DNA of 37,491 nt. It comes from an uncultured Prevotellaceae bacterium. GTDB lineage: Bacteria; Bacteroidota; Bacteroidia; Bacteroidales; Bacteroidaceae. The DNA is taken from positions 1 to 37,491 of the forward strand of contig CAMWQU010000024.1 in assembly GCA_947176535.1 (NCBI GenBank). Reading direction: 5' to 3'. Of the stretch, positions 8,247 to 34,442 are shown piece by piece. Under the pieces are notes generated by a model. That model did not search any database and had not been told where the DNA came from. It saw nothing but the letters and a program-made list of their open reading frames with translations. The position numbers and the translations under genes were made by a program. Each line of letters opens with the position of its first letter. The first letter of the stretch is position 1.

Positions 8247-8320
8247 TCGCCCTATGGACTCGTCCTCGTCCATACTATTGTCGAGGCTCCGTCCATATAT
8301 GGACGAACCATGGTCGTCGG
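8247..8320. repeat. Degenerate family II 22-bp repeat array
   Basis: Between two convergent genes. Core-like 12-mers (consensus TCCATAGCGGGA or its complement) start at 8247 (inverted, TCGCCCTATGGA), 8269 (TCCATACTATTG) and 8292 (TCCATATATGGA, within a perfect 14-bp palindrome 8291-8304); steps are 22 and 23 bp. The spacer GTCGAGGCTC matches those at 21.7 and 34.4 kb. The region is flanked by a perfect 9-bp inverted repeat, CCGACGACC (8230-8238) and GGTCGTCGG (8312-8320), and could serve as a bidirectional terminator. Confidence 0.6.
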
Positions 8321-8349
8321 TAGGTCTCCGGAAAACCTCCGGAACAGAT

Positions 8350-9411
8350 TTATAGCGAGAGGCCCACGAGCAGGCGCAGATACAGTTCGATGCCCTCCCG
8401 GATTTCAGGGATTCGGATAAATTCGTCCGCCGTGTGGCTGCGCCGGCTGTCGCCCGGGCCCATTTTCAGACTGGGGCACGAGAGCAGAGCCTGGTCGCTG
8501 AGCGTCGGACTGCCGAACGGAGTGCGGCCCAATTCCACGGCCCGCCGCACCAACGGATGCTCCCGGTCGATGCGGCTCGATGACAGCCGTGTGCTGCGCG
8601 GCGTCACCTCGCCCCTCACGTGCGCGCGTATCCTATTATATATGTCCTCGTTCGTGTGTAGCTCGTTGGTGCGCACGTCCACCACGAAATGGCACTTGTC
8701 GGGCACGACGTTGTGTTGCGTGCCGGCCTCAATGACGGTGACGGTCATTTTTGTGGGGCCCAGCAGCGGACTGACTTCCGGGAACTTGGTGGTGCGAATC
8801 CACTCGATGTCCTCCAAGGCATGGTAAATGGCGTTGTCCCCTTCGTTGCGGGCCGCGTGTCCGGCACGTCCGTGCTCCGTCACGTCGAGCACCATCAGCC
8901 CCTTTTCGGCAATGGCCGGTTGCATGCACGTGGGTTCACCCACCAAAGCTACGTCGATGGGCGGAAGCAGGGGTAGGGCACGCTCGATGCCGTTGCGGCC
9001 GCTCACCTCCTCTTCGGCCGAGGCCAGAAACACCAGATTGTAGTTCCGGGGCACCGAACGCAACTCGCAGAACACGGTCAGCAGGGCCACTAATGAGGCC
9101 CCGTCGTCGTTCGCCCCCAGTCCGTAGAGCGTGTCGCCCTCCAGGGTCGCCTTGTGTGGCTCGTGCTGCCATCCGCTGACGGGGCGCACCGTGTCGATGT
9201 GGGCGCAGAGCAGCAGTGTTTTCCTTTCCCCGTCGTAGTCCGGAGCCACGCACCACAGATTGTTGGCCTCGCGCTGCGGGCAGAGTCCCCGCTCCCTCAT
9301 GTATTGTTCCAGCAGGTCGGTCGCCTCCTGCTCCTCGCGGCTTATGCGCGGCGTTTCTATCAGTTGTTTCAGCAGTTCCACTGCCTCTTGGGTAAGTCGG
9401 TCGATGGGCAT
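8350..9411 (-). CDS. M20-family metallopeptidase, ArgE/DapE-like deacylase
   Basis: A 353-residue amidohydrolase using two zinc ions. Visible motifs are LLLCAHIDTVRPV (metal His and catalytic Asp), GLGANDDGASLVAL (bridging Asp), SAEEEVSGRNG (Glu base and ligand), GEPT and the late His in SRRSHTADEFI. I start at the ATG at 9411 because upstream frame extends only through a heptamer repeat and the promoter. Homologues in Bacteroides include the N-acetyl/succinyl-ornithine deacetylase of arginine synthesis and DapE; no arginine or lysine genes lie here, so the substrate stays open. Confidence 0.85.
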   Translation of the reverse strand: MPIDRLTQEAVELLKQLIETPRISREEQEATDLLEQYMRERGLCPQREANNLWCVAPDYDGERKTLLLCAHIDTVRPVSGWQHEPHKATLEGDTLYGLGANDDGASLVALLTVFCELRSVPRNYNLVFLASAEEEVSGRNGIERALPLLPPIDVALVGEPTCMQPAIAEKGLMVLDVTEHGRAGHAARNEGDNAIYHALEDIEWIRTTKFPEVSPLLGPTKMTVTVIEAGTQHNVVPDKCHFVVDVRTNELHTNEDIYNRIRAHVRGEVTPRSTRLSSSRIDREHPLVRRAVELGRTPFGSPTLSDQALLSCPSLKMGPGDSRRSHTADEFIRIPEIREGIELYLRLLVGLSL

Positions 9412-9417
9412 TCTTTT

Positions 9418-9452
9418 GGGATTAGGGATTAGAGAATAGGGATTAGGGGTTA
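9418..9452. repeat. Five tandem heptamers (GGGATTA) forming the M20 gene leader
   Basis: Bases 9418-9452 are exactly five 7-bp units, GGGATTA, GGGATTA, GAGAATA, GGGATTA, GGGGTTA. The + strand has four G-runs of three or more, enough for a G-quadruplex; the minus-strand transcript is correspondingly C-rich. With the promoter -7 element at 9459-9466, this array makes up nearly the whole 5' leader of the M20 gene. Confidence 0.75.
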
Positions 9453-9458
9453 TGCCTG

Positions 9459-9466
9459 CAAAGATA
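9459..9466 (-). promoter_or_regulatory. -7 element for the M20 peptidase gene
   Basis: The minus strand reads TATCTTTG, matching TAnnTTTG. The start would fall near 9452-9455, giving a leader of about 42 bases. No good -33 TTG is seen. Confidence 0.5.
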
Positions 9467-9496
9467 AATAAAATAGGTAAATATTGCATCTTTTTC

Positions 9497-9527
9497 TTGG
9501 TTCTTTTGCGCTTATGTGTTATATTTG
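9497..9527 (+). promoter_or_regulatory. Promoter of the acyl-CoA synthetase gene
   Basis: TTG at 9497-9499 and TATATTTG at 9520-9527, separated by 20 bp, lie 25 bases before the ATG at 9553. Confidence 0.65.
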
Positions 9528-9552
9528 CATACACAATTAAATTAGGGATATT

Positions 9553-11361
9553 ATGCTTAACGAAACTCCCCTCAGTCGCCTGATTCATTCTCAGGCAAAG
9601 CGATATGGCAAACGTACGGCCTTGATGTATCGTGACTATGATCTCGGCCGTTGGTGCGAATACTCGTGGGACGAATTTTCGCATCGTGTGCGTCTCGTCA
9701 GCAATGCGTTGCTCAGTCTGGGGGTAGACGTTCAGGAAAACATAGCCACGTTCTCGCAGAACATGCCCGAATGTCTGTTCGTGGATTTCGGCGCCTACGG
9801 CATACGGGCCGTGACGATTCCTTTCTATGCCACGAGTAGCGAGGCGCAGGTGAAGTACATCGTTTCCGATGCCAACATCCGCTACATCTTCGTGGGAGAG
9901 CAGTACCAGTATGATATCGCCGTGCGTGTGATGCAAATCGGGCCGCAGGTGAAGAAACTGATTATCTTCGACCCGAAAGTGAAGAAGAACCCGCAGGACC
10001 GGACGAGCATCTACTTCGATGAGTTCCTGGCTTTGGGCGAGGGCTTCCCCTATGACGCGGAGGTGGAGCTACGCTCCTCGGAACTACAACCCGATGAGCT
10101 TGCCAATATCCTGTACACCAGTGGAACGACCGGTTTGTCGAAGGGCGTGATGCAGACCCACCGTCAGTATTCCGCAGCCTTCCGTGCCCATGTTCCGGCA
10201 CTGCCGCTGTCCGACAAAGATGTCATTCTCGACTTCCTGCCTTTCACCCATATCTTCGAACGGGCGTGGAGTTATCTCTGCATCAGCTACGGATGTACGT
10301 TGGCCGTGAATCAGCGGCCGCAGGATATTTTGCAGTCCATGCTGGAGGTGCATCCCACGTGTATGTCGGCCGTTCCCCGCTTCTGGGAGAAAGTGTATGC
10401 CGGCGTGCTGGAGAAGATAAATTCGAGCAACGCCGTGCAGCGCACCCTCATGCTCGACGCCCTTCGCGTGGGCAAGGAGTATAACGTTAAGTACCGCATG
10501 CGCGGACTGGTGCCGCCCATCGGACTGAAGATGAAATACAAGTTCTACGAGAAGACCATCATTGCTCTGTTGCTGAAAAACCTCGGTCTGGAGCGTCAGA
10601 ACTTCTTCCCCACGGCCGGTGCCACGGTTCCGGTGGAGGTGGAAGAATTTGTACACGCCTGCGGCATAGGTATGTTGGTGGGCTACGGACTGACGGAATC
10701 GACAGCGACTGTGTCGTGCGACCGTTGGAACCGGCCCATCACACTGGGCTCGGTGGGGCGTGTGCTCGACTGCGTGGAAGTGAAGATTGGCGAAAACAAT
10801 GAAATTCTGCTCAAGGGCGACACCATCACCCGCGGATATTACCGCAAGGCCGAGGTGACAGCCAATGCCATTGATGCCGAGGGATGGTTCCATACGGGCG
10901 ATGCCGGTTATATGAAGGATGGCGAACTCTTCCTGACCGACCGCATCAAAGACCTCTTCAAGACGAGCAACGGCAAGTACATCGCTCCGCAGATGATAGA
11001 GACCAAACTTGTCGTAGACCGTTATATCGACCAAATTGTCATCATTGCCGATCAGCACAAGTTCGTCTCGGCGCTTGTCATTCCCAATTATGACTTGCTT
11101 GAGGACTGGGCCAAGAAGAATCATGTGGCCTTCGGAAGTCGTGCTGAACTCTGTTGCAATCCTGAGGTAGTGCAACTGGTGATGGAGCGTATTGAGACGC
11201 TGCAACAGGAGTTTGCTCACTACGAACAAGTGAAGCGCATCACGCTGCTGCCCGAACCGTTCAGCATGGAGCATGGCGAACTGACCAATACGCTGAAAGT
11301 GAAGCGCCCCGTAGTTTATCAGAACTATAAGGCGGAAATTGATAAAATGTATGAGGAATAG
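9553..11361 (+). CDS. fadD: Long-chain acyl-CoA synthetase (AMP-binding)
   Basis: A 602-residue adenylate-forming enzyme that activates fatty acids to acyl-CoA through an acyl-AMP intermediate. The ATP-binding loop YTSGTTGLSKG lies at about residues 188-198; GYGLTES, GWFHTGDAGY and DRIKDLFKTSNGKYIAPQ complete the A-domain signatures, and the C-terminal region follows. Length is normal for the Bacteroidota long-chain group. It is probably peripheral at the membrane and serves uptake or recycling of fatty acids for lipids. prfB follows after 39 bases. The gene symbol is assigned by family; the exact chain-length preference is unknown. Confidence 0.9.
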   Translation: MLNETPLSRLIHSQAKRYGKRTALMYRDYDLGRWCEYSWDEFSHRVRLVSNALLSLGVDVQENIATFSQNMPECLFVDFGAYGIRAVTIPFYATSSEAQVKYIVSDANIRYIFVGEQYQYDIAVRVMQIGPQVKKLIIFDPKVKKNPQDRTSIYFDEFLALGEGFPYDAEVELRSSELQPDELANILYTSGTTGLSKGVMQTHRQYSAAFRAHVPALPLSDKDVILDFLPFTHIFERAWSYLCISYGCTLAVNQRPQDILQSMLEVHPTCMSAVPRFWEKVYAGVLEKINSSNAVQRTLMLDALRVGKEYNVKYRMRGLVPPIGLKMKYKFYEKTIIALLLKNLGLERQNFFPTAGATVPVEVEEFVHACGIGMLVGYGLTESTATVSCDRWNRPITLGSVGRVLDCVEVKIGENNEILLKGDTITRGYYRKAEVTANAIDAEGWFHTGDAGYMKDGELFLTDRIKDLFKTSNGKYIAPQMIETKLVVDRYIDQIVIIADQHKFVSALVIPNYDLLEDWAKKNHVAFGSRAELCCNPEVVQLVMERIETLQQEFAHYEQVKRITLLPEPFSMEHGELTNTLKVKRPVVYQNYKAEIDKMYEE

Positions 11362-11400
11362 GGAGTTCGGACTTCCCTGTTTCCTTAAAGAGCTTAGAGA

Positions 11401-12516
11401 ATGATCACAATAGAACAACTGAAAGAGGTGAAGGAGCGCGTGGAGCAACTTCACCACTACCTGAACATAGAGGCCAAGCAAGTTCAGTACGAGGAGGAAC
11501 AGTTGCGCACGCAGGCACCCGGATTTTGGGACGACCAGAAGCGGGCCGAGGCGCAGATGAAACTCGTGAAGGGTCTGGAGAAGTGGATTAAGAGCTATGC
11601 CGCCGTGAAATCGTCCTGCGACGAACTGGATTTGGCTTTCGAATACTACAAGGAAGAACTGGTGACCGAAGCGGAAGTGGACGAACTGTATCACCGCACC
11701 GCAGCGGCCATAGAAGACCTGGAACTGAAGAATATGCTCCGCCGTGAGGAGGACGTGATGGATGCCGTGCTCAAGATTAACGCCGGAGCCGGCGGTACCG
11801 AGGCGCAGGACTGGGCGCAGATGCTCATGCGTATGTATATGCGCTGGGCCGAGTCGAACGGTTACAAATGTGTGGTCAGCAATATGCTTGACGGTGATGA
11901 TGCCGGCATCAAGACGTGTACGCTGGAAATTACGGGTGAGTTTGCCTATGGCTATCTGAAGAGCGAGAACGGCGTGCACCGTTTGGTGCGTGTATCGCCC
12001 TATAATGCCCAGGGCAAGCGCATGACGTCGTTTGCCTCCGTCTTCGTCACTCCGTTGGTGGATGATAGTATCGAGGTGAACATCGAGCAGGCGCGCATTT
12101 CGTGGGATACGTTCCGCTCCAGTGGTGCCGGCGGTCAGAATGTGAATAAGGTGGAATCGGGTGTGCGTCTTCGCTACCAGTACAAAGACCCTTATACCGG
12201 TGAGGAGGAGGAAATCCTGATTGAAAACACCGAGACCCGCGACCAGCCCAAGAACAAAGAGAATGCCTTACGCCTGCTGCGCTCCATGCTTTATGACAAG
12301 GAACTGCAACACCGTATGCAGGAACAGGCCAAGGTGGAGGCCGGAAAAAAGAAGATAGAGTGGGGCAGTCAGATAAGGAGCTATGTATTTGATGACCGCC
12401 GTGTGAAAGACCATCGCACAAACTATCAGACCAGTGACGTGACGGGAGTGATGGATGGCAAGATAGACGCTTTCATCAAGGCCTATCTGATGGAATTTGG
12501 TGCGGAAGAGAACTGA
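11401..12516 (+). CDS. prfB: Peptide chain release factor 2, no programmed frameshift
   Basis: A 371-residue RF2 that reads UGA/UAA and triggers peptide release. The catalytic GGQ is at 244-246 (SSGAGGQNVNK). The stop-codon recognition tripeptide, SPF in E. coli RF2, reads SPY at 199-201, which I think is usual in Bacteroidota. The E. coli gene carries a +1 frameshift site (CTT TGA C) at the end of the YLD block. Here the same place (HHYLN, 11461-11466) reads CTG AAC and the frame is open from ATG to stop, so the classic autoregulation is absent. The acceptor residues GTEAQDWAQMLMRMYMRWAE confirm RF2 rather than RF1. Confidence 0.95.
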   Translation: MITIEQLKEVKERVEQLHHYLNIEAKQVQYEEEQLRTQAPGFWDDQKRAEAQMKLVKGLEKWIKSYAAVKSSCDELDLAFEYYKEELVTEAEVDELYHRTAAAIEDLELKNMLRREEDVMDAVLKINAGAGGTEAQDWAQMLMRMYMRWAESNGYKCVVSNMLDGDDAGIKTCTLEITGEFAYGYLKSENGVHRLVRVSPYNAQGKRMTSFASVFVTPLVDDSIEVNIEQARISWDTFRSSGAGGQNVNKVESGVRLRYQYKDPYTGEEEEILIENTETRDQPKNKENALRLLRSMLYDKELQHRMQEQAKVEAGKKKIEWGSQIRSYVFDDRRVKDHRTNYQTSDVTGVMDGKIDAFIKAYLMEFGAEEN

Positions 12517-12565
12517 AGATGAAGTGAGCCTCGTCTGTGACGCAGGTTGTTAGCTTTTTATGTAG

Positions 12566-13057
12566 ATGGCACAGGAGATAGAACGGAAATTCCTTGTCGT
12601 GAGCGAGGACTACAAGTCGCAGGCTTACGCTTGCAGTCACATCCGGCAGGGCTACATCGCCACTCGTCCCGGACGTACCGTGCGGATTCGGATGCGTGAC
12701 GAAAAGGCTTATCTGACTATCAAAGGGCCGGCCGGTAAGGACGGTCTTTCGCGGTATGAGTTTGAGACGGAGATTCCGACCGACGATGCGCGTGAATTGC
12801 TGTTATTGTGCGAACCCGGCATCATCGACAAGCATCGTTATTTAGTGAAAAGTCCCGATGGACTGCATACGTGGGAAGTGGATGACTTTCATGGCGACAA
12901 CGAGGGCTTGGTTGTGGCCGAAATCGAACTCCGGACAGAGACGGAGGCATTCGGGAAGCCCGCTTTCGTGGGGAAAGAAGTCACCGGCGACCGTCGTTAT
13001 TACAACGGTCACCTGAGGGCTAACCCTTATAAAATCTGGAAAGAACAGCAACAATAG
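12566..13057 (+). CDS. CYTH-domain protein (triphosphate tunnel family)
   Basis: A 163-residue protein with the CYTH hallmark ExExK (EIERK, residues 4-8) followed by beta strands rich in paired basic and acidic residues (RTVRIRMRDEKAYLTIKGP, GLSRYEFETEIP, VAEIELRTE) that line the metal-dependent triphosphate tunnel. Bacterial relatives hydrolyse inorganic tripolyphosphate or thiamine triphosphate; adenylate cyclase activity is rarer. It follows prfB after 49 bases. Its last 38 bases overlap the convergent VanZ-like gene. Confidence 0.88.
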   Translation: MAQEIERKFLVVSEDYKSQAYACSHIRQGYIATRPGRTVRIRMRDEKAYLTIKGPAGKDGLSRYEFETEIPTDDARELLLLCEPGIIDKHRYLVKSPDGLHTWEVDDFHGDNEGLVVAEIELRTETEAFGKPAFVGKEVTGDRRYYNGHLRANPYKIWKEQQQ

Positions 13058-13403
13058 CGGCTGCCGTCAGCGCGCCTATGCAGTTGGCGACAAAGTCGAG
13101 CCACTCGCCGCTTCGGCACGTGGTAAGATACTTTTGTGCCAGTTCCAACAAGCCGCCCAATATCGCAGGCAGCAGTACAACGCCTATTGCCAGTCGCTTG
13201 CGTGAGACCGTGTGGTGCTGGCGCAGATACTCCCATCCGATAACAGAACCTACCCCGCCGTACATGACAAAGTGTACCCATTTGTCCAGTAGACTGATGT
13301 TGGGAAGGTGGGGGACTTCGGGTATCGGAGCCAGAGAGAGAATGATGACGATGGCTATAACGGCATGACTCAGAGGGTATCTTTTGAGGTAGCTTGCTTT
13401 CAT
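13020..13403 (-). CDS. VanZ-like membrane protein
   Basis: A 127-residue protein with four predicted membrane helices (about 12-30, 45-62, 70-88 and 103-122) and the VanZ-family features DKWVHFVMYG in helix 2 and GGLLELAQKYLT... GEWLDFVANCIGALTAA in the later helices. VanZ itself gives low-level teicoplanin tolerance; most homologues, including those in Bacteroidota, have no known function. It overlaps the end of the CYTH gene by 38 bp in convergent orientation and shares its promoter region with the divergent symporter gene. Confidence 0.8.
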   Translation of the reverse strand: MKASYLKRYPLSHAVIAIVIILSLAPIPEVPHLPNISLLDKWVHFVMYGGVGSVIGWEYLRQHHTVSRKRLAIGVVLLPAILGGLLELAQKYLTTCRSGEWLDFVANCIGALTAAAIVAVLSRFYKG

Positions 13404-13418
13404 AATCTATAGTTTATG

Positions 13419-13449
13419 TTGCAAAAATACGAAAGTTTTTGTATTTTTG
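13419..13449 (+). promoter_or_regulatory. Symporter promoter, overlapped by the VanZ-gene promoter
   Basis: On the + strand TTG (13419-13421), 20 bp, TATTTTTG (13442-13449) drives the first symporter. On the minus strand TATTTTTG (13429-13422) drives the VanZ-like gene and lies inside the spacer of the first. Polymerase cannot occupy both at once. Confidence 0.6.
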
Positions 13450-13480
13450 CGACGTTTTTTGTAAGAATTGTAAGCAAACT

Positions 13481-14842: not shown

Positions 14843-14843
14843 C

Positions 14844-16199: not shown

Positions 16200-16213
16200 A
16201 TCCGATAGTCAGG

Positions 16214-17131
16214 ATGGCCTATTTTGAGCCTACATCCGGCGAGCGCAGGGGCGTGGTCGTGTTGGGCGTGGCCCTATTGTTGGGATTCGCCATCCTTCTG
16301 TTTGTGCAGTTGAGTGCCCCGCAGGCTTCCGGAGATGCCGAAAAGCCCGGAGAAGCGGGGACGTCCCTTCGGAGTAAACGCTCCTCTCAGTTGTATTACG
16401 CCTGTCCCGAACGGAAGGTGGAAACTTTTGACTTCGACCCCAACGAAGCCGACTCCACGACGCTGTTCCGTTTGGGCTTTGCCCCTTTTCAGGTTCGCGG
16501 CATCTATCGCTACCGAAGCATGGGAGGCCGTTACCATGAGCCCGCAGATGTGCAGCGCATTCCCGGCATGACCAACGAACTTTGGGAGCGTCTGGCCGGC
16601 CACATCCGCATCCATCGCCGCTATCAGTATGTGACACCACCTCCGCGTTCCCGCGACCGCCTTGTGAGGAGCGATTCTCCGGTTGAGGCTGTCTCCCGGG
16701 CGAACCGCGATACGCTCCGTTTTCCGGAAAAGTTGAGGCCGGGGCAGACTGTGTCTCTGAACGAGGCCGACACCACGGCTCTAAAGAAAATTCCGGGCGT
16801 CGGTTCCTACTATGCCGCCCGTATCGTGCGCTACCGGGAGGCACTGGGTGGTTATGCCTCGGCCGAGCAACTGCTGGAAATCGAGGGCATCCCCGATGAC
16901 ATCGGACAATGGGTTAGCGTGGACACCGCGCACCTGCGGCGCATCGACGTCAATCACGCCACGAAGTCGCAGCTCGTCCGCCATCCCTATCTTCGTGTCT
17001 ATCGCGCCGGCGACATCTGGCAGTGGCGCCACAACTATGGCCCTCTCCGCTCGGCCGACGATTTGCGCCGGCTCCCCAACTTCACGGACGACGATGTTCA
17101 GCGCCTGCTGCCCTATCTTTTGTTTCGGTAA
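16214..17131 (+). CDS. Membrane-anchored helix-hairpin-helix protein (ComEA-like)
   Basis: A 305-residue protein with a short cytoplasmic tail, one membrane helix (about 12-32, GVVVLGVALLLGFAILLFVQL) and at least three HhH-type repeats: FDPNEADSTTLFRLGF (about 74-125), LNEADTTALKKIPGVGSYYAARIVRYRE (about 185-235) and IDVNHATKSQLVRHPYLR (to the end). This layout is typical of Bacteroidota ComEA-like proteins, which may bind DNA outside the inner membrane during uptake. No other competence genes are nearby. It ends 17 bases before a strong hairpin terminator. Confidence 0.85.
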   Translation: MAYFEPTSGERRGVVVLGVALLLGFAILLFVQLSAPQASGDAEKPGEAGTSLRSKRSSQLYYACPERKVETFDFDPNEADSTTLFRLGFAPFQVRGIYRYRSMGGRYHEPADVQRIPGMTNELWERLAGHIRIHRRYQYVTPPPRSRDRLVRSDSPVEAVSRANRDTLRFPEKLRPGQTVSLNEADTTALKKIPGVGSYYAARIVRYREALGGYASAEQLLEIEGIPDDIGQWVSVDTAHLRRIDVNHATKSQLVRHPYLRVYRAGDIWQWRHNYGPLRSADDLRRLPNFTDDDVQRLLPYLLFR

Positions 17132-17148
17132 TAAATAGCTTGTTTTTG

Positions 17149-17190
17149 TAAGACGGGCGTCTTTCATGTGAAAGACGCCCGTCTTATTTT
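17149..17190 (+). terminator. Intrinsic terminator built from a family I repeat pair
   Basis: A perfect 18-bp inverted repeat (17149-17166 and 17169-17186) with a 2-base centre, followed by TTTT, lies 17 bases after the HhH gene. It contains two 14-bp palindromic cores, AAGACGGGCGTCTT at 17150 and the inverted AAGACGCCCGTCTT at 17172, exactly 22 bp apart. The same pair ends the array at 26.5 kb. It probably ends the symporter operon. The remaining bases to 17315 show only a GCCTCC/GGAGGC inverted pair near 17195. Confidence 0.8.
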
Positions 17191-17315
17191 TATGCCTCCG
17201 CGTTGCCGGTCGGCGGGAGGCGTGTTCCACCCTTTCCAAGTCGCCTCGGAGGACGAAGAAACCGCCAAGTGCAGACTTTTTGCCTGCCGGGCGTAAGAAT
17301 CTCGGAAAAAAGTTG

Positions 17316-17323
17316 TATTTTTG
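17316..17323 (+). promoter_or_regulatory. -7 element for rlmN, very close to the start codon
   Basis: TATTTTTG ends nine bases before the ATG at 17333, so transcription would start only about 3-6 bases ahead of it. No clear -33 TTG is present. Confidence 0.5.
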
Positions 17324-17332
17324 CAGACACGT

Positions 17333-19395: not shown

Positions 19396-19459
19396 GGCGG
19401 ACGACGCCGCAACGCATGGCCGGTAGTTAGGACAGAATAAAAACAAGTATTACAAAGAT

Positions 19460-20614: not shown

Positions 20615-20648
20615 GCGCGCCGCACGCTGACGAACAATCCGGAAGAGG

Positions 20649-21693: not shown

Positions 21694-21756
21694 CCGTCCA
21701 TAGCGGGACGAGCCTCGATCCCGCTATGGATTCGCCCTCGTCCCGCTATGGACGGA
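21694..21756. repeat. Family II 22-bp repeat array with 20-bp inverted ends
   Basis: Three 12-bp cores start at 21697 (TCCATAGCGGGA), 21719 and 21741 (both TCCCGCTATGGA, inverted), each exactly 22 bp from the next although orientation changes. The outer units form an inverted repeat, 21693-21712 with 21737-21756 (20 bp, perfect). It lies between the flippase-like gene and the carbonic anhydrase gene. Confidence 0.85.
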
Positions 21757-21801
21757 GCCGCATCCTCCTATACACGTGTGTGCGTACACGCGGGCGCGTT
21801 T
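21757..21801 (-). repeat. GC-rich head of the family II element (inverted copy)
   Basis: Read on the minus strand, this segment (AACGCGCCCGC, then CACACGTGTATAGG and a GGATGCGGCTC stretch leading into the array) matches the segment at 34308-34354 on the + strand. The two element copies therefore lie in opposite orientation. Confidence 0.7.
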
Positions 21802-21826
21802 CCTTTGAATAATGAGGGCAATCTTC

Positions 21827-21856: not shown

Positions 21857-21884
21857 CATTCGGTAGGTTACTAAATACTGCAAT

Positions 21885-22430: not shown

Positions 22431-22457
22431 ATCCCGGATTTTAATTCAGCCGACGGA

Positions 22458-23030: not shown

Positions 23031-23047
23031 CGGAAGAACACGTAGAA

Positions 23048-23086
23048 AAACGAAAACGTCTACCCGCGGGTGGACGTTTTTCGTTT
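23048..23086. terminator. Bidirectional terminator between convergent genes
   Basis: AAACGAAAACGTC (23048-23060) pairs with GACGTTTTTCGTTT (23073-23086) with a single bulge, and the inner ACC-CGCG-GGT extends the stem. A-rich and T-rich flanks serve both strands. It overlaps the last codons of the DUF4405 gene. Confidence 0.75.
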
Positions 23087-23488: not shown

Positions 23489-23489
23489 T

Positions 23490-24095: not shown

Positions 24096-24122
24096 CGCTT
24101 GTCTTCGTATCGTATGGATTGA

Positions 24123-24818: not shown

Positions 24819-24831
24819 AGGTAATCTTCTG

Positions 24832-26379: not shown

Positions 26380-26410
26380 AGCTATTAAGTCTTAAATTAT
26401 TATTCCGTGG

Positions 26411-26418
26411 CAAAAGTA
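26411..26418 (-). promoter_or_regulatory. -7 element for the glyS operon
   Basis: The minus strand reads TACTTTTG; transcription would begin near 26405, about 26 bases before the ATG. The -33 region has no good TTG. Confidence 0.55.
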
Positions 26419-26511
26419 CAAAAAAATAGCGGACTTTCCGCATACGGCCCTCTTTTTTTCACTCCTTGCGCCTGCGCGACCGCTGCGCCGCTCTGCAGAC
26501 GGCCAAAATGA

Positions 26512-26597
26512 AAGACGGGCGTCTTACAGCAACAAGACGGGCATCTTATCAGTGTAAGACGGGCGTCTTTCGGCCGGAAGACGCCCGTCTTATTTTT
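26512..26597. repeat. Family I 22-bp repeat array, four units, ending in hairpin and T-run
   Basis: Four 14-bp cores start at 26512, 26534, 26556 and 26578, exactly 22 bp apart: AAGACGGGCGTCTT, the variant AAGACGGGCATCTT, AAGACGGGCGTCTT, then the inverted AAGACGCCCGTCTT. The 8-bp spacers differ (ACAGCAAC, ATCAGTGT, TCGGCCGG). Units three and four fold into a 17-bp stem (26555-26571 with 26576-26592) followed by TTTTT, like the pair at 17149. It lies in a divergent intergenic region, so it is not placed to end either neighbouring gene. Bases 26419-26510 show nothing clear. Confidence 0.9.
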
Positions 26598-26637
26598 CCG
26601 TGAATGTAGCACCCGTGGCAAATAATCAGGTTGCATT

Positions 26638-26669
26638 TTTGCGAAGAACGCAAAAAATGAGTATCTTTG
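26638..26669 (+). promoter_or_regulatory. M16 peptidase promoter
   Basis: TTTG at 26638-26641, a 20-bp spacer and TATCTTTG at 26662-26669 give a full-consensus promoter; the leader to the ATG at 26772 is about 96 bases with no evident hairpin terminator. Confidence 0.7.
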
Positions 26670-26771
26670 CAACTGAAAATGACGCGTGAGCGTAAAGCCT
26701 TCTCCCGGCCGGTGCCTTGCGGACGCCGGAAAGGCTGTGTAATCGTAATTTGTTGAAATAATATATACATC

Positions 26772-29678
26772 ATGAAACGTATCTTTCTTTTCGCCCTGGC
26801 TTTGATGCTGACTGTCGGAGCCATGCAGGCCAAACGCTATGCGTACAAGAGCGTGGAGGGCGACCCCATGCAGACGAGAATCTACACCCTGCCCAACGGA
26901 CTGCGGGTATATTTGTCCGTGAACAAGGAGAAACCGCGCATACAGACTTTCATCGCCGTTCGCACGGGTTCGAAGAATGACCCGGCCGAGACGACGGGAC
27001 TGGCGCACTATCTGGAGCATCTGATGTTTAAGGGCACGCGGCAGTTCGGAACGGACAATGCCGAGGCCGAGCAGCCGTTGCTGGACGAGATAGAACGCCG
27101 CTACGAGGAGTATCGACTGATTACCGACGAGGCCGTGAGACGGCAGAAGTATCACGAGATAGACAGCGTGAGCCAGTTGGCTGCGCAATACTTCATTCCC
27201 AACGAATACGACAAACTGATGGCTGCCATCGGCGCGCAGGGCACCAATGCTTTCACTTCCAACGACGTGACCTGCTACGTGGAGGACATTCCCTCCAACG
27301 AGATAGAGAACTGGGCGCGCATTCAGGCCGACCGTTTCCAGAATATGGTCATCCGTGGTTTCCATACCGAATTGGAGGCCGTGTATGAGGAATACAACAT
27401 CGGCCTCGGCAGCGACATGAATAAGTTGTATGAGGCCCTGTTGAACAAGCTCTTCCCGACCCATCCCTACGGAACGCAGACAACCATCGGGACGCAGCAG
27501 CACCTGAAAAACCCCTCTATCACGAACATTAAGAACTACTTCGCGAAGTGGTACGTCCCCAACAACGTGGCCATCTGCATGGCCGGCGATTTCGAGCCGG
27601 ATGAAGTGATGGCCGTCTTGGAAAAGCACTTCGGACAGTGGCGGCCCGGCTCCGATGTCGCTCAGCCTCAGTTCCCGAAGCTGGAGCCCCTCACCGCTCC
27701 CGTGGACAGCACGGTTGTGGGTCTGGAGGCCGAAAGTGTGTGTGTCGGTTGGCGCAGCGACCGCGCCCAGTCGTTGCAGAACGATACGCTGGAACTTATT
27801 GATGCGGTGCTCTCCAACGGCAAGGCCGGCTTGCTCGACCTCGACCTGAACCAGGAAATGAAAGTCATGGTAGCCCAGTCGGGCGTGGAAGCTCTGCTCG
27901 ACCACGGCATCTTTATTCTGCTGGGCATGCCGAAGGAGGGACAGACCCTTGAAGAGGTGCGTGCCTTGCTACTGGGTGAGATAGAGAAGCTGAAGCGTGG
28001 CGAATTTGACGAAGACCTGCTTGCTGCATCGCTGAACAATAAGAAGCTCCACGAACTGATGGAACTGGAACACAACGGTACCCGTGTGAGAAAGATGATG
28101 GAAGCCTTCATCAACGGCGTATCGTGGGAACAGCAGGTGGGACAGATGGAACGTCTGGCTAAAATCTCGAAAGCCGACCTTGTGGAGTTCGCTAACCGCT
28201 TCTTCACGGACGGTTATGTCACCGTCTACAAGCGTCAGGGCGAGGATACCACGCAGAAGAAGATAGAGAAACCGGCTATTACCCCGATTCCTACCAACCG
28301 CGACCGGATGAGCGCATTCGTGCAGGAAATTCAGCAGAGTCACGTGGAACCGATTCATCCGCAGTTCCTCGACTTCAAGCGCGACCTGTCGTTCTTCGAC
28401 ACCAAGAAGGGTTTGCCCGTCATCTACAAGCAGAACAAGGAGAACGACCTCTTCCATCTCAACTTCCGTTACCGCTTCGGAAAGGAGGACGACCGTCGTT
28501 ACGACATGGCCGCCTCGTACATGGACTATCTCGGCACAAAGAAGAAAACGGCCGCCGAGGTGAAACAGGAATTTTACAAACTGGCCTGCAACTACTCCGT
28601 GAGTGTAGGCACAGACGAGATACAGATCGGCCTCAGCGGACTGAGCGAGAACATGCCCCAGGCCCTTGCTCTGCTGGAGGATTTGCTGCGGAACGCTCAG
28701 GTGGACAAGGAAGCCTATGACGAGATGGTGGGGCTGGTGCTGAAAGAGCGTCAGGACAATAAAGCCGACCAGCAGGTGTGCTTCTCCGCCTTGAGCCAGT
28801 ATGCCCAGTACGGCCCTCACAATCCCCTGCGTGACAACATGACCGAGCAGGAGTTGCGCGAGACAAATCCTCAGGTTCTGCTCGACCTGCTGAAGAATAT
28901 TTCGCAGTACGACCATCAGGTACTTTATTACGGCCCCATGAGCGAGGCCGACCTCAATAAGTGTGTGACGAAGTTGCACGCCACCAAGAAGCAACTGCTT
29001 GCCGTGCCCGAGGGCGAACCTTACTGTCAGCAACTGACCACGCTTCCCGAAGTCTTCATTGCTCCCTACGATGCCAAGAACATCTATATGCGCATGAACT
29101 ACAACGAGGGACGCAACGCGAATCTCGACCAGTACGCCACCATATCACTGTTCAACGAATACTTCGGCGGCGGCATGAACGGCATCGTCTTTCAGGAACT
29201 GCGCGAGGCCCGCGGTCTGGCTTACAGTGCAGCGGCCTACTATCTCACGCCTTCCAAGAAGGGAAATCCCGAAAGTTTCTTCACGTACATCATCACACAG
29301 AACGACAAAATGATGGATTGTGTACAGCAGTTCCGTGAAATCATCGACCGTATGCCGCAGTCCGAGGCTGCCTTCCAGATTGCCAAAGACGCTCTGTTGA
29401 AGCAGATGGCCAGCCGGCGTACTACGAAATACGGAGTTATCTCGGCTTATCTTGCCGCCCAGAAGCAAGGCTACGACTTCGACATCAATGAAAAGATTTA
29501 CAGCGATCTGCAGGGCCTTACCCTGAAAAATATTGTCGATTTCGAGCAGTCGCACATTGCCGGCAAGACGGGCCGTTACATCATTCTCGGCGATGAAAAG
29601 GAACTGGATATGAAATCCCTTGAGGAAATCGCTCCTGCCGTTCACCGGCTGTCCCTTGAGGAAGTATTCGGCTACTGA
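26772..29678 (+). CDS. M16-family zinc metallopeptidase (pitrilysin-like)
   Basis: A 968-residue exported protease. A signal peptide (to AMQA, residue 20) precedes the inverted zinc motif HYLEH (79-83); the third ligand is probably in AVYEEYN (Glu206 or Glu207). The second half is the usual inactive M16 partner domain, with the substrate-recognition block GMNGIVFQELREARGLAYSAAAYY near 810-835. The two halves form a closing chamber that degrades short peptides in the periplasm. It has its own promoter and stands ahead of parC. Confidence 0.92.
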   Translation: MKRIFLFALALMLTVGAMQAKRYAYKSVEGDPMQTRIYTLPNGLRVYLSVNKEKPRIQTFIAVRTGSKNDPAETTGLAHYLEHLMFKGTRQFGTDNAEAEQPLLDEIERRYEEYRLITDEAVRRQKYHEIDSVSQLAAQYFIPNEYDKLMAAIGAQGTNAFTSNDVTCYVEDIPSNEIENWARIQADRFQNMVIRGFHTELEAVYEEYNIGLGSDMNKLYEALLNKLFPTHPYGTQTTIGTQQHLKNPSITNIKNYFAKWYVPNNVAICMAGDFEPDEVMAVLEKHFGQWRPGSDVAQPQFPKLEPLTAPVDSTVVGLEAESVCVGWRSDRAQSLQNDTLELIDAVLSNGKAGLLDLDLNQEMKVMVAQSGVEALLDHGIFILLGMPKEGQTLEEVRALLLGEIEKLKRGEFDEDLLAASLNNKKLHELMELEHNGTRVRKMMEAFINGVSWEQQVGQMERLAKISKADLVEFANRFFTDGYVTVYKRQGEDTTQKKIEKPAITPIPTNRDRMSAFVQEIQQSHVEPIHPQFLDFKRDLSFFDTKKGLPVIYKQNKENDLFHLNFRYRFGKEDDRRYDMAASYMDYLGTKKKTAAEVKQEFYKLACNYSVSVGTDEIQIGLSGLSENMPQALALLEDLLRNAQVDKEAYDEMVGLVLKERQDNKADQQVCFSALSQYAQYGPHNPLRDNMTEQELRETNPQVLLDLLKNISQYDHQVLYYGPMSEADLNKCVTKLHATKKQLLAVPEGEPYCQQLTTLPEVFIAPYDAKNIYMRMNYNEGRNANLDQYATISLFNEYFGGGMNGIVFQELREARGLAYSAAAYYLTPSKKGNPESFFTYIITQNDKMMDCVQQFREIIDRMPQSEAAFQIAKDALLKQMASRRTTKYGVISAYLAAQKQGYDFDINEKIYSDLQGLTLKNIVDFEQSHIAGKTGRYIILGDEKELDMKSLEEIAPAVHRLSLEEVFGY

Positions 29679-29738
29679 TGAACCCGCTTTCCCGTTAATC
29701 GCCTTTCTTCACGAACCATCCTACATGCTAATCAGAAT

Positions 29739-32402
29739 ATGTCCGATACTGTAAAACCCACAGAGGGAATCACGCACCATCTGAACCAGATGTATCAGAA
29801 GTGGTTCCTCGATTATGCGTCCTATGTCATTTTGGAACGTGCCGTGCCGCACATCGGCGACGGATTCAAGCCCGTGCAGCGCCGCATCATGCACTCTATG
29901 AAGCGCATGGACGACGGCCGCTTCAATAAGGTTGCCAATATTGTGGGTCACACGATGCAGTTCCATCCCCACGGAGATGCCTCCATCAAGGATGCACTGG
30001 TGCAGTTGGGACAGAAAGACCTGTTGGTCGATTGCCAGGGAAACTGGGGTAACATACTGACGGGTGACGATGCGGCCGCCGGCCGTTACATTGAGGCCCG
30101 TCTCAGCAAGTTCGCTCTCGACGTCGTCTTCAATCCGAAGACTACGGAATGGAAACTTTCGTATGACGGCCGTAACAAAGAACCCATCACGTTGCCCGTC
30201 AAGTTTCCTCTTCTGCTGGCGCAGGGAGCCGAGGGCATTGCCGTGGGGCTCAGTTGCAAGATACTGCCCCACAACCTGAACGAAATCTGCGATGCCGCCA
30301 TCAGTTACCTGCACGGCGAGGAGTTTCACCTTTATCCCGACTTTCCCACGGGCGGCAGCATCGACGTATCAAAATACAATGACGGACAGCGCGGCGGCAG
30401 TGTCCGGGTGCGTGCGAAAATCGAGAAGCGCGACAACAAGACACTGGTCATAACGGAGATTCCTTTCGGCAAGACGACCGGTACGGCCAGCAAGCCCAGC
30501 CCGTTCATCGACAGCATTCTGAAGGCTGCCGAAAAAGGAAAGATAAAGGTGCGCAAGGTGGAAGACTTGACGGCGGCCGGTGTGGAGATACTTATCCACC
30601 TGACTCCGGGTGCCTCGTCGGACAAGACCATCGACGCCCTGTATGCCTGCACGGACTGCGAAGTCAGTCTCTCTCCCAACTGCTGTGTCATAGATGACCG
30701 CAAACCCTGTTTCCTCACCGTCAGCGACGTTCTGAAGAGGAACACGGACACGACCCTGGGCCTGCTGAAGCAGGAACGCCTCATCCGCAAAGGTGAACTC
30801 TTAGAGGCCCTGCACTTCGCCACTTTGGAACAAATTTTTATCGAGGAGCGCATCTATAAAGACCGTCAGTTCGAGAACGCGAAGTCGATGGATGCAGCCT
30901 GCGAATGGATAGACGAACGTCTGACCCCGTGGTATCCCAAGATGGTGCGCGAGGTGACGAAAGACGACATCCTGCGCCTGATGGAAATCAAGATGGCCCG
31001 CATCCTGCGCTTCAACAAGGACAAGGCCGAGGAAAACATAGCCCGCATCAAGGACGAGATAGCCCAGATAGACAAGGAACTGGCCAACATGGTGGAGGTG
31101 ACCTGCGACTGGTTCCGCTTTATTAAGGAAAAGTACGGCAAAGACCATCCGCGCCTCACCGAAATCAAGAACTTCGACACGATTACCGCCGCAAAGGTGG
31201 TGGAAGCCAATCAAAAACTGTACATCAACCGCGAGGAAGGCTTCATCGGAACGGGCCTGAAAAAAGACGAATACGTCTCCAACTGTTCCGACATCGACGA
31301 CGTCATCATCTTCTACAAGGACGGCACGTACAAGGTTGTCCGCATTGCCGACAAACTGTTTGTGGGCGAAACGGAGCGTTCGAAGGCGGAGAAGCGGAAG
31401 GTGGAGATTATCCACGTGGCCGTCTTCAAGAAAAACGATTCGCGCACGGTCTACAATGCGATATACCGCGATGGCAAGTCGGGAGCCTATTACATCAAGC
31501 GTTTCAATGTGACCAGCATGACGCGCGACCGAGAGTATGACCTCACACAGGGCAAACCGGGCAGCCGCGTGGTCTATTTCACCCCGAATCCCAACGGCGA
31601 GGCCGAGATTGTGAAGGTGACGCTGAAGCCGAATCCGAAACTGAAGCGAGTCTTCTTCGACAAGGACTTCTCCGAGATAGCCATCAAGGGCCGTCAGAGC
31701 ATGGGCAATCTGGTGACGAAACTCGATGTGGCCTCCATCAAACTGAAGAGCCACGGCGGCAGTACGCTCGGTGGCCGTCAGGTGTGGTTCGACCCGGATG
31801 TGAAGCGTCTCAACTACGACGGACAGGGCACCTACCTCGGCGAGTTCAACAGCGAGGAACAGATACTTGTTATCCGCCGGAACGGCGAGTTCTACGTGAC
31901 GAACTTCGACACGAACAACCACTATGAGGATGACGTGCTGCGCATCGAAAAGTACGATGTCGGCAAGGTTTGGACGGCCTGCCTCTTCGATGCCGACCAA
32001 CAGGGCTACGCCTACATCAAGCGTTTCACCTTAGAGGCCGGCACCCGCCATCAGAGCTACCTCGGTGAGAATCCCGACAACCGGTTGATACTGCTTACCG
32101 ACACCCCTTATCCTCATCTGCTGGTGACGATGGGCGGCAACGACGACTTCCGCGAGCCGCTCGACATCGACGCCGAGACTTTCATCGGCGTGAAGAGCTT
32201 CAAGGCCAAGGGCAAGCGCATCACCACCTGCCATGTGGCAAAGATTGAGGAACTGGAGCCTACCCGTCAGCCCGACCCCGAACCCGTTACGCCGCCCTCC
32301 GTCCCCGCATCTGCCGACGGCGAGGAGGAACCGACTGACGACGAACAGAGCCAGCAGGAGGCGGCCGACGAGCTGAACGGACAACTGCGGTTGTTTGAGT
32401 AA
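29739..32402 (+). CDS. parC: DNA topoisomerase IV subunit A
   Basis: An 887-residue type IIA topoisomerase breakage-reunion subunit that, with ParE, unlinks daughter chromosomes. The catalytic Tyr117 lies in AAGRYIEARLS, and the C-terminal region forms the DNA-wrapping beta-pinwheel with no canonical GyrA box (QRRGGKG), which favours ParC over GyrA. In the quinolone-determining region the run GDASIKD (79-85) has Ala81 where E. coli has Ser80, and Asp85 where it has Glu84. The last 50 residues are acidic and P/E/Q-rich, ending QLRLFE. parE is not in the window. Confidence 0.9.
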   Translation: MSDTVKPTEGITHHLNQMYQKWFLDYASYVILERAVPHIGDGFKPVQRRIMHSMKRMDDGRFNKVANIVGHTMQFHPHGDASIKDALVQLGQKDLLVDCQGNWGNILTGDDAAAGRYIEARLSKFALDVVFNPKTTEWKLSYDGRNKEPITLPVKFPLLLAQGAEGIAVGLSCKILPHNLNEICDAAISYLHGEEFHLYPDFPTGGSIDVSKYNDGQRGGSVRVRAKIEKRDNKTLVITEIPFGKTTGTASKPSPFIDSILKAAEKGKIKVRKVEDLTAAGVEILIHLTPGASSDKTIDALYACTDCEVSLSPNCCVIDDRKPCFLTVSDVLKRNTDTTLGLLKQERLIRKGELLEALHFATLEQIFIEERIYKDRQFENAKSMDAACEWIDERLTPWYPKMVREVTKDDILRLMEIKMARILRFNKDKAEENIARIKDEIAQIDKELANMVEVTCDWFRFIKEKYGKDHPRLTEIKNFDTITAAKVVEANQKLYINREEGFIGTGLKKDEYVSNCSDIDDVIIFYKDGTYKVVRIADKLFVGETERSKAEKRKVEIIHVAVFKKNDSRTVYNAIYRDGKSGAYYIKRFNVTSMTRDREYDLTQGKPGSRVVYFTPNPNGEAEIVKVTLKPNPKLKRVFFDKDFSEIAIKGRQSMGNLVTKLDVASIKLKSHGGSTLGGRQVWFDPDVKRLNYDGQGTYLGEFNSEEQILVIRRNGEFYVTNFDTNNHYEDDVLRIEKYDVGKVWTACLFDADQQGYAYIKRFTLEAGTRHQSYLGENPDNRLILLTDTPYPHLLVTMGGNDDFREPLDIDAETFIGVKSFKAKGKRITTCHVAKIEELEPTRQPDPEPVTPPSVPASADGEEEPTDDEQSQQEAADELNGQLRLFE

Positions 32403-32441
32403 TCCGCTCTCCCCCGAAGTCTCTTTCCCCGATGCCCACGT

Positions 32442-33269
32442 ATGAAAAAAGGTTATAGTTTCATCGCAAAAGCCCTCTGTCTCGTCCTTCTCTTTTCTCC
32501 GCTGCGGGGCAGAGCCGAGGAGGGAATGCGACAGACCACCCATGCGACGCTCTTCGGCCTCGGCCGGGTGAACCATCTCGATACCTATCTTTCTCCTTTG
32601 GAATACAAAGGCCCCCAGGCGACCTTTCTTCACCGGACAGACCGCCTGCTGCGGCGCAACCCCAACATCCTCTATCAGACGTGGACGCAAGGCGAGTTTT
32701 CCTATGCTCACAATCCCGCCGGGAACGTCCACGACATCGGCGGAGCCCTCCATTACGACATGGGATGGGGCCGGATTTGGAAGAATCTGCTTTTGCCGAA
32801 CCTCGACGTTTCCGTCTCCGGACTGGCCGGCGGGACGTTCGGTTTTCTCTACAACGAGCGGAACGGCAACAATCCCGCGCAGGCCCGTGCCCAGCTCCGC
32901 CTCTCTGCGGCCCTCGGCGGAGACTATCGTTTCCGCATCCGGCGGCAGACGCTGACCCTCCGCTATCAACTGCATCTGCCCCTCCTCGGCATGGCCTTCC
33001 TTCCCCGCTACGGACAGAGCTATTACCACCTGTTCGTGCAGGGTCAGAGAGACCATAACCTTGTCTGCACCCACGTGGCCGATGCCTTCTCCCCGTGCCA
33101 GTTGCTCACGCTCGACATTCCCGTCCGCCGTTCCGTGCTCACTGTCGGCTACCTCAGCGACATCCGCCAGTTGCAGGCCAACGGCCTCAAGCAGCATCAG
33201 TATGTCCGCTCGTTCGTGGTCGGTTACACCCGCAGTCTGAGCATCGTGCGGCGGAAAAACGAAAAGTAA
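32442..33269 (+). CDS. DUF3316 protein, probable outer-membrane beta-barrel
   Basis: A 275-residue protein with a signal peptide (cleavage after GRA, about residue 25) and a body of alternating beta strands rich in aromatic ends (FLYNERNG, LRYQLHLPLLGM, YYHLFVQGQRDH), ending with a strand ...SFVVGYTRSLSI that suits outer-membrane insertion. It matches my memory of DUF3316 in Bacteroidales; function unknown. It lies 39 bases after parC and 11 before an S41 peptidase gene, and the latter pair is probably co-transcribed. Confidence 0.75.
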   Translation: MKKGYSFIAKALCLVLLFSPLRGRAEEGMRQTTHATLFGLGRVNHLDTYLSPLEYKGPQATFLHRTDRLLRRNPNILYQTWTQGEFSYAHNPAGNVHDIGGALHYDMGWGRIWKNLLLPNLDVSVSGLAGGTFGFLYNERNGNNPAQARAQLRLSAALGGDYRFRIRRQTLTLRYQLHLPLLGMAFLPRYGQSYYHLFVQGQRDHNLVCTHVADAFSPCQLLTLDIPVRRSVLTVGYLSDIRQLQANGLKQHQYVRSFVVGYTRSLSIVRRKNEK

Positions 33270-33280
33270 AGCCCAAGACC

Positions 33281-34306
33281 ATGAGACGCCCGATATTTCT
33301 CCTGCCGCTTCTTCTCCTGTTGCTCCTCCCCCTCGCTACCTCCTGTGTCCGGGAAGACACGTTCGACAACACGCCGGAGGGCAACTTCGAGGCCCTTTGG
33401 AAAATCATAGACGAGCATTACTGTTTCCTCGATTACAAGGCCGAGGCCATCGGGCTGGACTGGAACGAGGTGCACACCCGTTACCGTCAGCGCATATCGC
33501 CATCCATGAGCAACGTGCAGTTGCAGGAAGTCCTGACGGACATGCTGTCGGAGCTGCGCGACGGCCACGTGAATCTCTACACTTCGGCCGACGTCTCGCG
33601 CTACTGGCACTGGCACGAGGACTACCCGCGCAACTGGACTCAGGAACTGCGCGACCGCTATCTCGGCACGGACTATAAGATAGCCGCCGGCATCTCCTAC
33701 CGCATACTGGAGGACAACATCGGTCTCATCGTGTACGAAAGTTTCTCGTCGGGCGTCGGCGAGGGCAATTTGGATGACGTCATGTACTACCTGCGTTCGT
33801 GCGACGGCCTGATTGTGGACGTGCGCGGCAACACCGGCGGGCAGCTCACCTACGCGGAACGCCTCTCCCAACGGCTGACTAACGACCGCCTGCTGGTGGG
33901 CTATTCGCAGTACAAGACGGGGCGCGGACATGGCGACTTCTCCACTCCGAAGGCGGAATACCTGCAACCCTCCACGGGCGTGCGCTGGCAGAAGTCCGTC
34001 GTCGTGCTTCAGAATCGCGAATGCTATTCGGCCTGCAACATTTTCCTCCGCAACGCCCGCGTCTGCCCCCGTGTCACCACGCTCGGCGACCGCTCCGGCG
34101 GTGGCAGCGGCATGCCTTTCTCCTCCGAACTCCCCAACGGTTGGGCCGTGCGTTTCAGTGCCTCTCCGTCTTTCGACAAGGATATGCAGCAGATAGAGTT
34201 CGGCATCGAGCCGGACATCGTCTGCTCCCTCTCCGCCTCGGACGCACTCAAGGGTACCGACACACTCATCGAGGAAGCCCGCCGCTTGCTGAAAGACTAT
34301 AAATAA
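33281..34306 (+). CDS. S41-family peptidase lipoprotein
   Basis: A 341-residue lipoprotein (lipobox LATSC, Cys22). The front resembles Tricorn-core/TSPc proteins (FEALWKIIDEHYCFLDYK, LSDGHV-like ELRDGHVNLY). The oxyanion/strand motif DVRGNTGG is at about 185-192 and the likely nucleophile Ser250 lies in ECYSACN. The CtpA-type catalytic Lys is not evident; the later SGGGSGMPFSSELPNG loop looks like the Tricorn or IRBP branch with a Ser-Glu pairing. I start at ATG 33281 because the open frame upstream overlaps the DUF3316 gene and lacks a signal peptide. Confidence 0.85.
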   Translation: MRRPIFLLPLLLLLLLPLATSCVREDTFDNTPEGNFEALWKIIDEHYCFLDYKAEAIGLDWNEVHTRYRQRISPSMSNVQLQEVLTDMLSELRDGHVNLYTSADVSRYWHWHEDYPRNWTQELRDRYLGTDYKIAAGISYRILEDNIGLIVYESFSSGVGEGNLDDVMYYLRSCDGLIVDVRGNTGGQLTYAERLSQRLTNDRLLVGYSQYKTGRGHGDFSTPKAEYLQPSTGVRWQKSVVVLQNRECYSACNIFLRNARVCPRVTTLGDRSGGGSGMPFSSELPNGWAVRFSASPSFDKDMQQIEFGIEPDIVCSLSASDALKGTDTLIEEARRLLKDYK

Positions 34307-34307
34307 G

Positions 34308-34354
34308 GAACGCGCCCGCACGTGCACGTGCGCACGTGTAGGGCAGGACGCCTC
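34308..34354 (+). repeat. GC-rich head of the family II element, with CACGTG palindromes
   Basis: Starts two bases after the S41 stop. It contains AACGCGCCCGC, a perfect 14-bp palindrome GCACGTGCACGTGC (34318-34331) and a further CGCACGTGTAGG. The same head, in inverse orientation, borders the array at 21.7 kb, so head and array form one unit. Confidence 0.7.
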
Positions 34355-34442
34355 CTCGTCCATAGCGGGACCGAGGCTTGTCCATAGCAGGATTGAGGCT
34401 CGTCCATAGCGGGACGAAGGCCCGACCATAGTAAGGCCGCGG
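34355..34442 (+). repeat. Family II tandem array, four direct 22-bp units
   Basis: Four head-to-tail 22-bp units begin at 34355, 34377, 34399 and 34421. Each has the core TCCATAGCGGGA (the second has one change, the fourth is degraded to ACCATAGTAAGG) and a spacer close to CCGAGGCTCG. The repeats are not in any gene. There are no unique spacers of CRISPR length. Confidence 0.9.

Follow-up and report, generated by a model that had tools for sequence, protein, structure and literature searches.

The usual definition of a dispersed repeat in bacteria is one of sequence. Repetitive extragenic palindromic (REP) sequences and bacterial interspersed mosaic elements (BIMEs), which are GTAG- or CGTC-tagged, are described in PMC3733652 as short, species-specific palindromes in high copy number that occur in both orientations, intergenic and near 3' ends, with some intragenic copies, and the spacers of REP dimers are given there as variable and mostly 20-100 bp long. 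The nearest repeat in the order considered here is BrickBuilt, a miniature inverted-repeat transposable element of Porphyromonas gingivalis, which is described in PMC4596501 as a single sequence family of intergenic 23-nt tandem units in variable number (up to 22.8), having a leader, a tail and IS5-type terminal inverted repeats; for strain W83, that paper also cites repeats of 22, 23 and 41 nt. PINSR of Prevotella intermedia is a 188-bp intergenic repeat with 177 and 184 copies in two strains and no terminal inverted repeats (PMC4755523). In the present study, we analyzed a 37,491-nt stretch of DNA from an uncultured Prevotellaceae bacterium (contig CAMWQU010000024.1; hereafter, the window), which carries five arrays of short palindromes belonging to two unrelated families, I and II. 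The trait conserved in these arrays was revealed to be the spacing, the sequence being replaced between species: cores of 14 or 15 bp follow one another across spacers of 8 bp, mostly giving a step of 22 bp.

The arrays share with REP/BIME their place, copy number, palindromy, species-specific families, both orientations and the presence of some copies within genes, and they are extragenic palindromes in high copy number. They differ in being tandem, with unrelated families all keeping to the same 22-bp step, and in showing neither the defining tag nor the REP-associated tyrosine transposase (RAYT). By eye, no unpaired GTAG or CGTC tag was seen in families I and II, CGTC occurring inside paired arms, and the Y1 transposase/RAYT domain (PF01797) gave no match in the genome of the window (G000; 46 contigs totalling 2,215,474 bp, with a completeness of 85%) or in the array-rich congeners G002, G005, G012, G016, G020, G023 and G024; it was above the cut-off in other genomes, including G026 and G021. 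A RAYT as a requirement for these repeats was thus rejected, and the arrays add to the REP-like repeats one whose copies abound although a RAYT was not found in the genomes concerned. Like BrickBuilt, they are intergenic in the same order and have units of near-equal length in varying number, and family II has a one-sided leader; unlike BrickBuilt, they comprise many unrelated families, mostly of 2-5 units (6-7 in a few), and the unit is a palindrome plus a spacer. No terminal inverted repeats or target-site duplications were seen by eye, and no systematic insertion-sequence search was made. Since neither tag nor RAYT was found and BrickBuilt is a single family with terminal inverted repeats, we place the arrays among the dispersed palindromes as a form of their own that belongs to neither group. 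PINSR, compared by description only, is likewise lineage-specific, intergenic and free of recognised terminal inverted repeats, and differs in its far longer unit.

The spacing rule was derived from the whole genome. Family I comprised 43 units in 11 arrays (nine of four units, one of five and one of two), in all of which the step was 22 bp (32/32). Family II comprised 101 exact cores, 64 forward and 37 reverse, and its reversed pattern did not occur in the genome. Sixty-five family II arrays among the matches listed were examined, and the distances between consecutive cores (allowing up to two mismatches and a separation of up to 120 bp, in the loci read and ten sample stretches) were 22 bp (60 steps), 44 bp (12), 45 bp (12) and 66 bp (1), with no others. 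When the middle unit of the longer steps was cut 8 bp from its neighbours, half-site ends appeared in 12/12 distinct cases for the 44-bp and 12/12 for the 45-bp steps, the middle units being 14 and 15 bp long, respectively. Because these units fit as cores with half-site ends, the conserved quantity is the 8-bp spacer and the period is the core length (14 or 15 bp) plus 8; all 85 family II steps fit this rule. The degraded family II array of the window (8246..8304, no strand assigned) follows it as well. Its cores at 8246, 8268 and 8291, each one base before the degraded copies reported in the earlier note, are 14, 15 and 14 bp long and separated by two 8-bp spacers, and the second step is 23 instead of 22 bp because the middle core, GTCCATACTATTGTC, has 15 bp with an 8-bp spacer on both sides. 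The 22-bp stepping and its single exception were therefore both borne out, as were the six family I cores of the window (17150/17172 and 26512/26534/26556/26578) and the family II cores, whose 14-bp form begins one base before the 12-mers given earlier (21696 and 34358 onward). The genome holds at least a third family, with the core CGGTTAATTATTCG at a 22-bp step (L294:17266, L296:12057, L297:10308 and 19007). With two congener families added, one shared by the sister species G012 and G023 (97/97 steps multiples of 22, orthologous arrays being counted in both species) and one of G024 (25/25 in three 20-kb stretches), all 239 of 239 neighbouring steps obeyed the rule.

Among relatives, the step recurred with other cores. 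The exact family I and II cores formed no arrays in 60 congeneric species and 40 members of the order's other families, each core giving one stray match that proved on reading to be a single core. When words of 14-16 nt recurring at a constant offset were sought irrespective of their sequence, the search revealed 44 direct arrays of period 22 in 40 congener stretches (748 kb), versus 0.2 per shuffled set, and 26 in ten further stretches (200 kb), where other periods reached at most 4 except the harmonic 44. Of these 70 arrays in 948 kb, 68 lay outside predicted genes, which leave only about 12% of the sequence as non-coding, as against 9 for the next-best non-harmonic period between 15 and 45; the genes were predicted with an in-house codon-usage caller, and array contexts are approximate. 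The other two lay in predicted genes at L184 and L183, the latter of which may be coding. The 70 arrays fell into 25 sequence clusters, so that the core changes at a constant period, and no period-22 array was found in 18 stretches (258 kb) from other families of the order. In a sample of 80 named loci fetched around one peptidase gene, the closest 22, mostly from ruminant-gut metagenome genomes, contained 26 period-22 arrays in 386 kb. The sharing of the period thus extends to all family I and II loci read and to congeners, so that neither outcome named earlier as a refutation, a broad distribution of spacings or a period common to these loci alone, was observed; of the scan of related genomes suggested earlier, the step was recovered and the cores were not.

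The typical unit joined a palindrome some 14 bp long to 8 further bp, as exemplified by the cores CGCACC-GT-GGTGCG (G024), AATGGTTAACCATT (G012/G023), GAGTTGACCAACTT (G005), AACTCCGCGGAGTT (L250) and AATACTCGAGTATT (L219). Two of the cores showed species-specific amplification: CGCASCRYGSTGCG occurred 659 times in G024 (roughly every 3.8 kb; control, 9) and 0 or 1 time in nine other genomes, and forward copies of the G012/G023 core numbered 256 in G012, 235 in G023, 20 in G020 and 0 or 1 in seven others. Adjacent palindromic units differed at 0.119 of core positions and 0.337 of spacer positions.

The comparison of the sister species carried the argument further. Of 47 G012 family arrays with usable flanks, 34 had orthologous flanks in the G023 sample, and 25 of these 34 kept their length. 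Substitutions amounted to 78/1637 in cores (0.048), 119/672 in spacers (0.177) and 1090/7191 in flanks (0.152), meaning that cores changed about three times more slowly than spacers and flanks and that spacers changed at a flank-like rate; an earlier sample of 18 arrays gave the same pattern (0.045, 0.146 and 0.139, respectively). Core substitutions clustered at the symmetric positions 3 and 12 (18 and 20 of 78). Four indels were counted inside the 34 arrays: one clean whole unit, a 22-bp event at L334_14433 that on closer reading did not amount to a clean unit, a real change of 1 bp in a spacer, and an apparent 2-bp indel at L341 that was really a pair of compensating 1-bp gaps. Non-22-bp indels in arrays numbered 2, versus about 8.7 expected at the per-site flank rate (Poisson about 0.008, calculated by hand). 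On these sequence comparisons we base the conclusion that selection acts on the cores and on their spacing, the simplest reason being protein dimers that would sit on one face of the DNA. Each palindrome would be bound by one dimer of a candidate protein, and a gap of 8 bp would place adjacent dimers two turns apart, on a common helix face. We favour this explanation tentatively, granting it slightly less than an even chance. It is preferred over a copying process that counts 22 bp, because spacer letters drift at the flank rate with spacer length fixed and palindromes conserved; of the two shared processes that the earlier note had offered, phased binding is hence the one favoured over pure counting by copying.

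Several points weigh against selection for phased binding. By a stricter yardstick, the flank indels per substitution multiplied by the spacer substitutions, 2.95 spacer indels were expected and 1 was real, which is not significant alone, and that one indel left a spacer at L334 of 9 instead of 8 bp. The G024 listing contains one pair 36 bp apart, L206 carries a 21-bp version of the layout (GAAAATNNATTTTC plus 7 bp) in the 460 bp that precede its M16 match, and palindromy is enriched and not universal, pairs of at least 6/7 occurring in 26% of 109 distinct 22-bp units versus 4% of shuffled units. Among the 58 more distant Prevotella-type peptidase loci (L212-L270 without L222), the 24 intergenic period-22 arrays in 1.1 Mb were matched by periods 21 (21 arrays, 17 families) and 16 (22 arrays, 6 families); other periods being as common there, the sharp 22-bp rule is a property of part of this group. 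Moreover, 22 bp make two turns only if the helix has a pitch near 11 bp, the binding by the candidate protein is predicted, many orthologous length differences are no multiple of 22, and a copying-based dispersal could preserve the spacing for a while without selection. The conservation of spacing across species makes selection on the geometry of DNA open to test here, and the families form a natural series in which the cognate protein might be found by co-variation. A broader version, which we regard as doubtful, is a genus-wide organising system in which the ruler is conserved, each species' own palindrome family or families, reaching several hundred copies, would co-evolve with a fast-changing DNA-binding protein, and 2-4 dimers, always spaced by two helical turns, would line up on one face at gene ends and insulate or terminate transcription units.

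Whole units were gained and lost between orthologues, as in L204/L205 and L322/L329 (one unit, 22 bp each) and L171/L172 (G023 vs G012; two units, 44 bp), and the paralogues L062/L063 of the window's genome differed by one 23-bp unit with a 15-bp core. In G040, a three-unit 66-bp array (L184:3613-3679) stands in frame inside an open reading frame of 542 codons. The orthologues L182 and L176, from G048 and G042 (529 and 511 codons), lack it and are 66 and 60 bp shorter, respectively. Copying of units, also raised in the earlier note, is therefore real. These differences could suggest that a copying or recombination machine adds and removes 22-bp quanta, the shared period being a property of the machine and not of selection, and arrays near-identical over all 22 bp, spacers included, in G002, G016 and G020 as well as the 66-bp array in the G040 frame would suit such a machine. 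It would not, however, keep the spacers, whose letters drift as fast as the flanks, free of indels afterwards, and 15-bp cores yield 23-bp steps; in addition, neither RAYT nor IS110 was found in the window's genome, so we consider this explanation unlikely. A linked transposase, a possibility pointed to earlier, was not detected in this 85% complete genome with PF01797 or with PF01548 (IS110), the latter being above the cut-off in 1/10 genomes. The reading of the units as recombinase core sites, with half-sites round an 8-bp spacer, was rejected since neighbouring spacers differ and leave no matching crossover sequence. Other length differences between orthologues were 86, 60, 34, 27, 49, 132, 130 and 190 bp, several exceeding 200 bp and many being 1-3 bp; the 132-bp difference between L179 and L175 is a multiple of 22, yet it was not clean as a unit change on inspection. 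As a separate observation, the collinear array at L334:190 (G012) and L344:742 (G023) has first units that are exact reverse complements, AATGGTTAACCTTT and AAAGGTTAACCATT, reflecting either a flipped unit or two symmetric substitutions.

The four-unit family I array of the window (26512..26591, no strand assigned; units at 26512, 26534, 26556 and 26578, the first three in one orientation and the fourth reversed) sits between the divergent genes proS and M16 peptidase. An automatic call placed it inside an open reading frame antisense to M16, which was rejected, proS and M16 being conserved neighbours in relatives. This locus bears on common descent, according to which one ancient array type passively bequeathed its period as its cores drifted. 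Family I (AAG-N8-CTT) resembles AAGTTnGnCAACTT-like 22-bp arrays upstream of the same M16 gene in several relatives, and the arrays L202 and L204, at one orthologous site, have different unit sequences in what reads as the same register. The relatives that bear arrays upstream of M16, however, have no proS beside it, and these arrays were accordingly rejected as orthologous. None of the six relatives with proS directly beside M16 carries a family I-like array there (L211 has a 1.7-copy 22-bp repeat of another sequence), meaning that family I arrived there recently, and the 25 clusters of unit sequence have no common sequence seen by eye. Common descent is in our view very unlikely.

The arrays lie close to gene ends. 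Their median distance was 14-116 nt from 3' ends and 153-286 nt from 5' ends in the four families, and 88 versus 254 nt in the congeners. The co-directional family I arrays lay 4-24 nt past a stop codon in 5/5 cases, a first annotation having placed five family I arrays between co-directional, four between divergent and one between convergent genes with one "inside" (26512, counted as a fifth divergent case), and a second annotation giving four, four, two and one, respectively. The two-unit array AAGACGGGCGTCTT/AAGACGCCCGTCTT of the window (17150..17185, no strand assigned; units at 17150 and 17172), between co-directional neighbours, begins 18 nt past the stop of a gene ending at 17131 and forms an 18-pair hairpin followed by a T-rich tail. 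Such features raise the possibility that the arrays act as RNA only, adjacent palindromes forming 36-nt hairpins that serve as bidirectional terminators or protect mRNA 3' ends with no phased protein. In a 19-kb terminator scan, both family I loci of the window were the strongest matches (18 pairs and a T-tail), the scan overall giving 19 sites versus 18.0 in shuffles. A polarity test counted AAA in the 10 bp left and TTT in the 10 bp right of arrays. The fractions were 0.73/0.73 in family I (11 arrays), 0.42/0.40 in G012/G023 (48) and 0.58/0.75 in G024 (12), as against opposite runs of 0.27/0.18, 0/0 and 0.08/0.17; within the internal 8-bp spacers, these runs were at 0.00-0.04, except AAA at 0.11 in G024. 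On the read-through side, TTT stood in 6/8, 25/50 and 11/14 cases in the three families, respectively, all of which combine a stable hairpin with a T-run on the transcribed side. Compared with block shuffles, arrays also had the better folds (median z -3.3 to -7.5). In family I, the last two units were near reverse-complementary (distance 0.55 vs 1.58 at random; first pair 1.64, middle 3.18), and the two ends of the last spacer paired with each other more than the null in three families (I 0.50, G012 0.43, G024 0.63; nulls 0.23-0.28).

Nevertheless, an action by RNA alone leaves much unaccounted for. Family II had TTT on the read-through side in only 1/63 cases and lacks the intrinsic-terminator signature, and for its array at 34358 in the window the fold was not superior to that of shuffled sequence (z -0.9 and -0.2). 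T-runs were weakly enriched over 64 congener arrays with two neighbours (0.22 vs 0.14), and 5/11 family I arrays (four plus 26512) stand between divergent genes. Hairpins, furthermore, need no exact 8 nt in every spacer, including the linkers between hairpins. Adjacent cores were not complementary above random in the G012, G024 and II families and exceeded it only in the last pair of family I; on this ground, the idea that RNA hairpins generally account for the spacing was rejected. We therefore rate RNA-only action as possible and, on balance, doubtful. In a more limited role, the family I, G012/G023 and G024 arrays, with their left A-runs and right T-runs, probably double as bidirectional terminators, their transcript hairpins ending transcription both ways; family II does not, having its own leader instead. 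Family I resembles intrinsic terminators in its GC-rich hairpin and T-rich tail just past stop codons, and differs from them in being tandem, phased, dispersed as copies of one sequence and present also between divergent genes. The side of G-U wobbles in family I, viewed as a sign of the transcribed strand, was mixed by eye and not used.

As to known classes of other kinds, a clustered regularly interspaced short palindromic repeats (CRISPR) array has 24-48-bp repeats and regularly sized unique spacers. The present arrays are of another build, with a 14-bp repeat, an 8-bp spacer, few units and many dispersed loci; no cas search was made. The neisserial dRS3 repeats have inverted half-sites round a variable 8-bp centre and are not known to be tandem at 22 bp; the arrays resemble them in the half-sites around 8 bp and differ in being tandem at 22 bp and of unrelated sequence. 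Rfam gave no match in the window at the gathering score, a tRNA search found none, and among the matches listed from the open-licence literature, no title or start of an abstract concerned palindrome arrays phased at 22 bp, either in Prevotella or in the Bacteroidales.

All five arrays of the window are intergenic, as noted earlier: the degraded array lies between convergent genes, three arrays between co-directional genes and one between divergent genes. The remaining co-directional ones belong to family II, namely a three-core array (21696..21753, no strand assigned; cores at 21696 (+), 21718 (-) and 21740 (-)) and a four-core array on the plus strand (34358..34437; cores at 34358, 34380, 34402 and 34424, the last degenerate). 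No leader was seen in family I. In family II, purines and pyrimidines alternated over 12 or more positions on one side only in 42/65 arrays, versus 4% in shuffled sequence. This run belongs to a leader some 50 bp long, and 12/42 match GGAANCGCG; the tail is weakly conserved. Alternating purine-pyrimidine tracts are of the kind able to form Z-DNA. In the window, with limits set by eye, the leader of the 21696 array (21754..21806, minus strand) consists of a GGAGGAT-type degenerate unit, an alternating purine-pyrimidine tract and a GCGCGTTTCC end, and that of the 34358 array (34304..34350, plus strand) of TAAGGAACGCGC, an alternating tract and GGGCAGGAC. Both leaders read outward into a T-rich tail.

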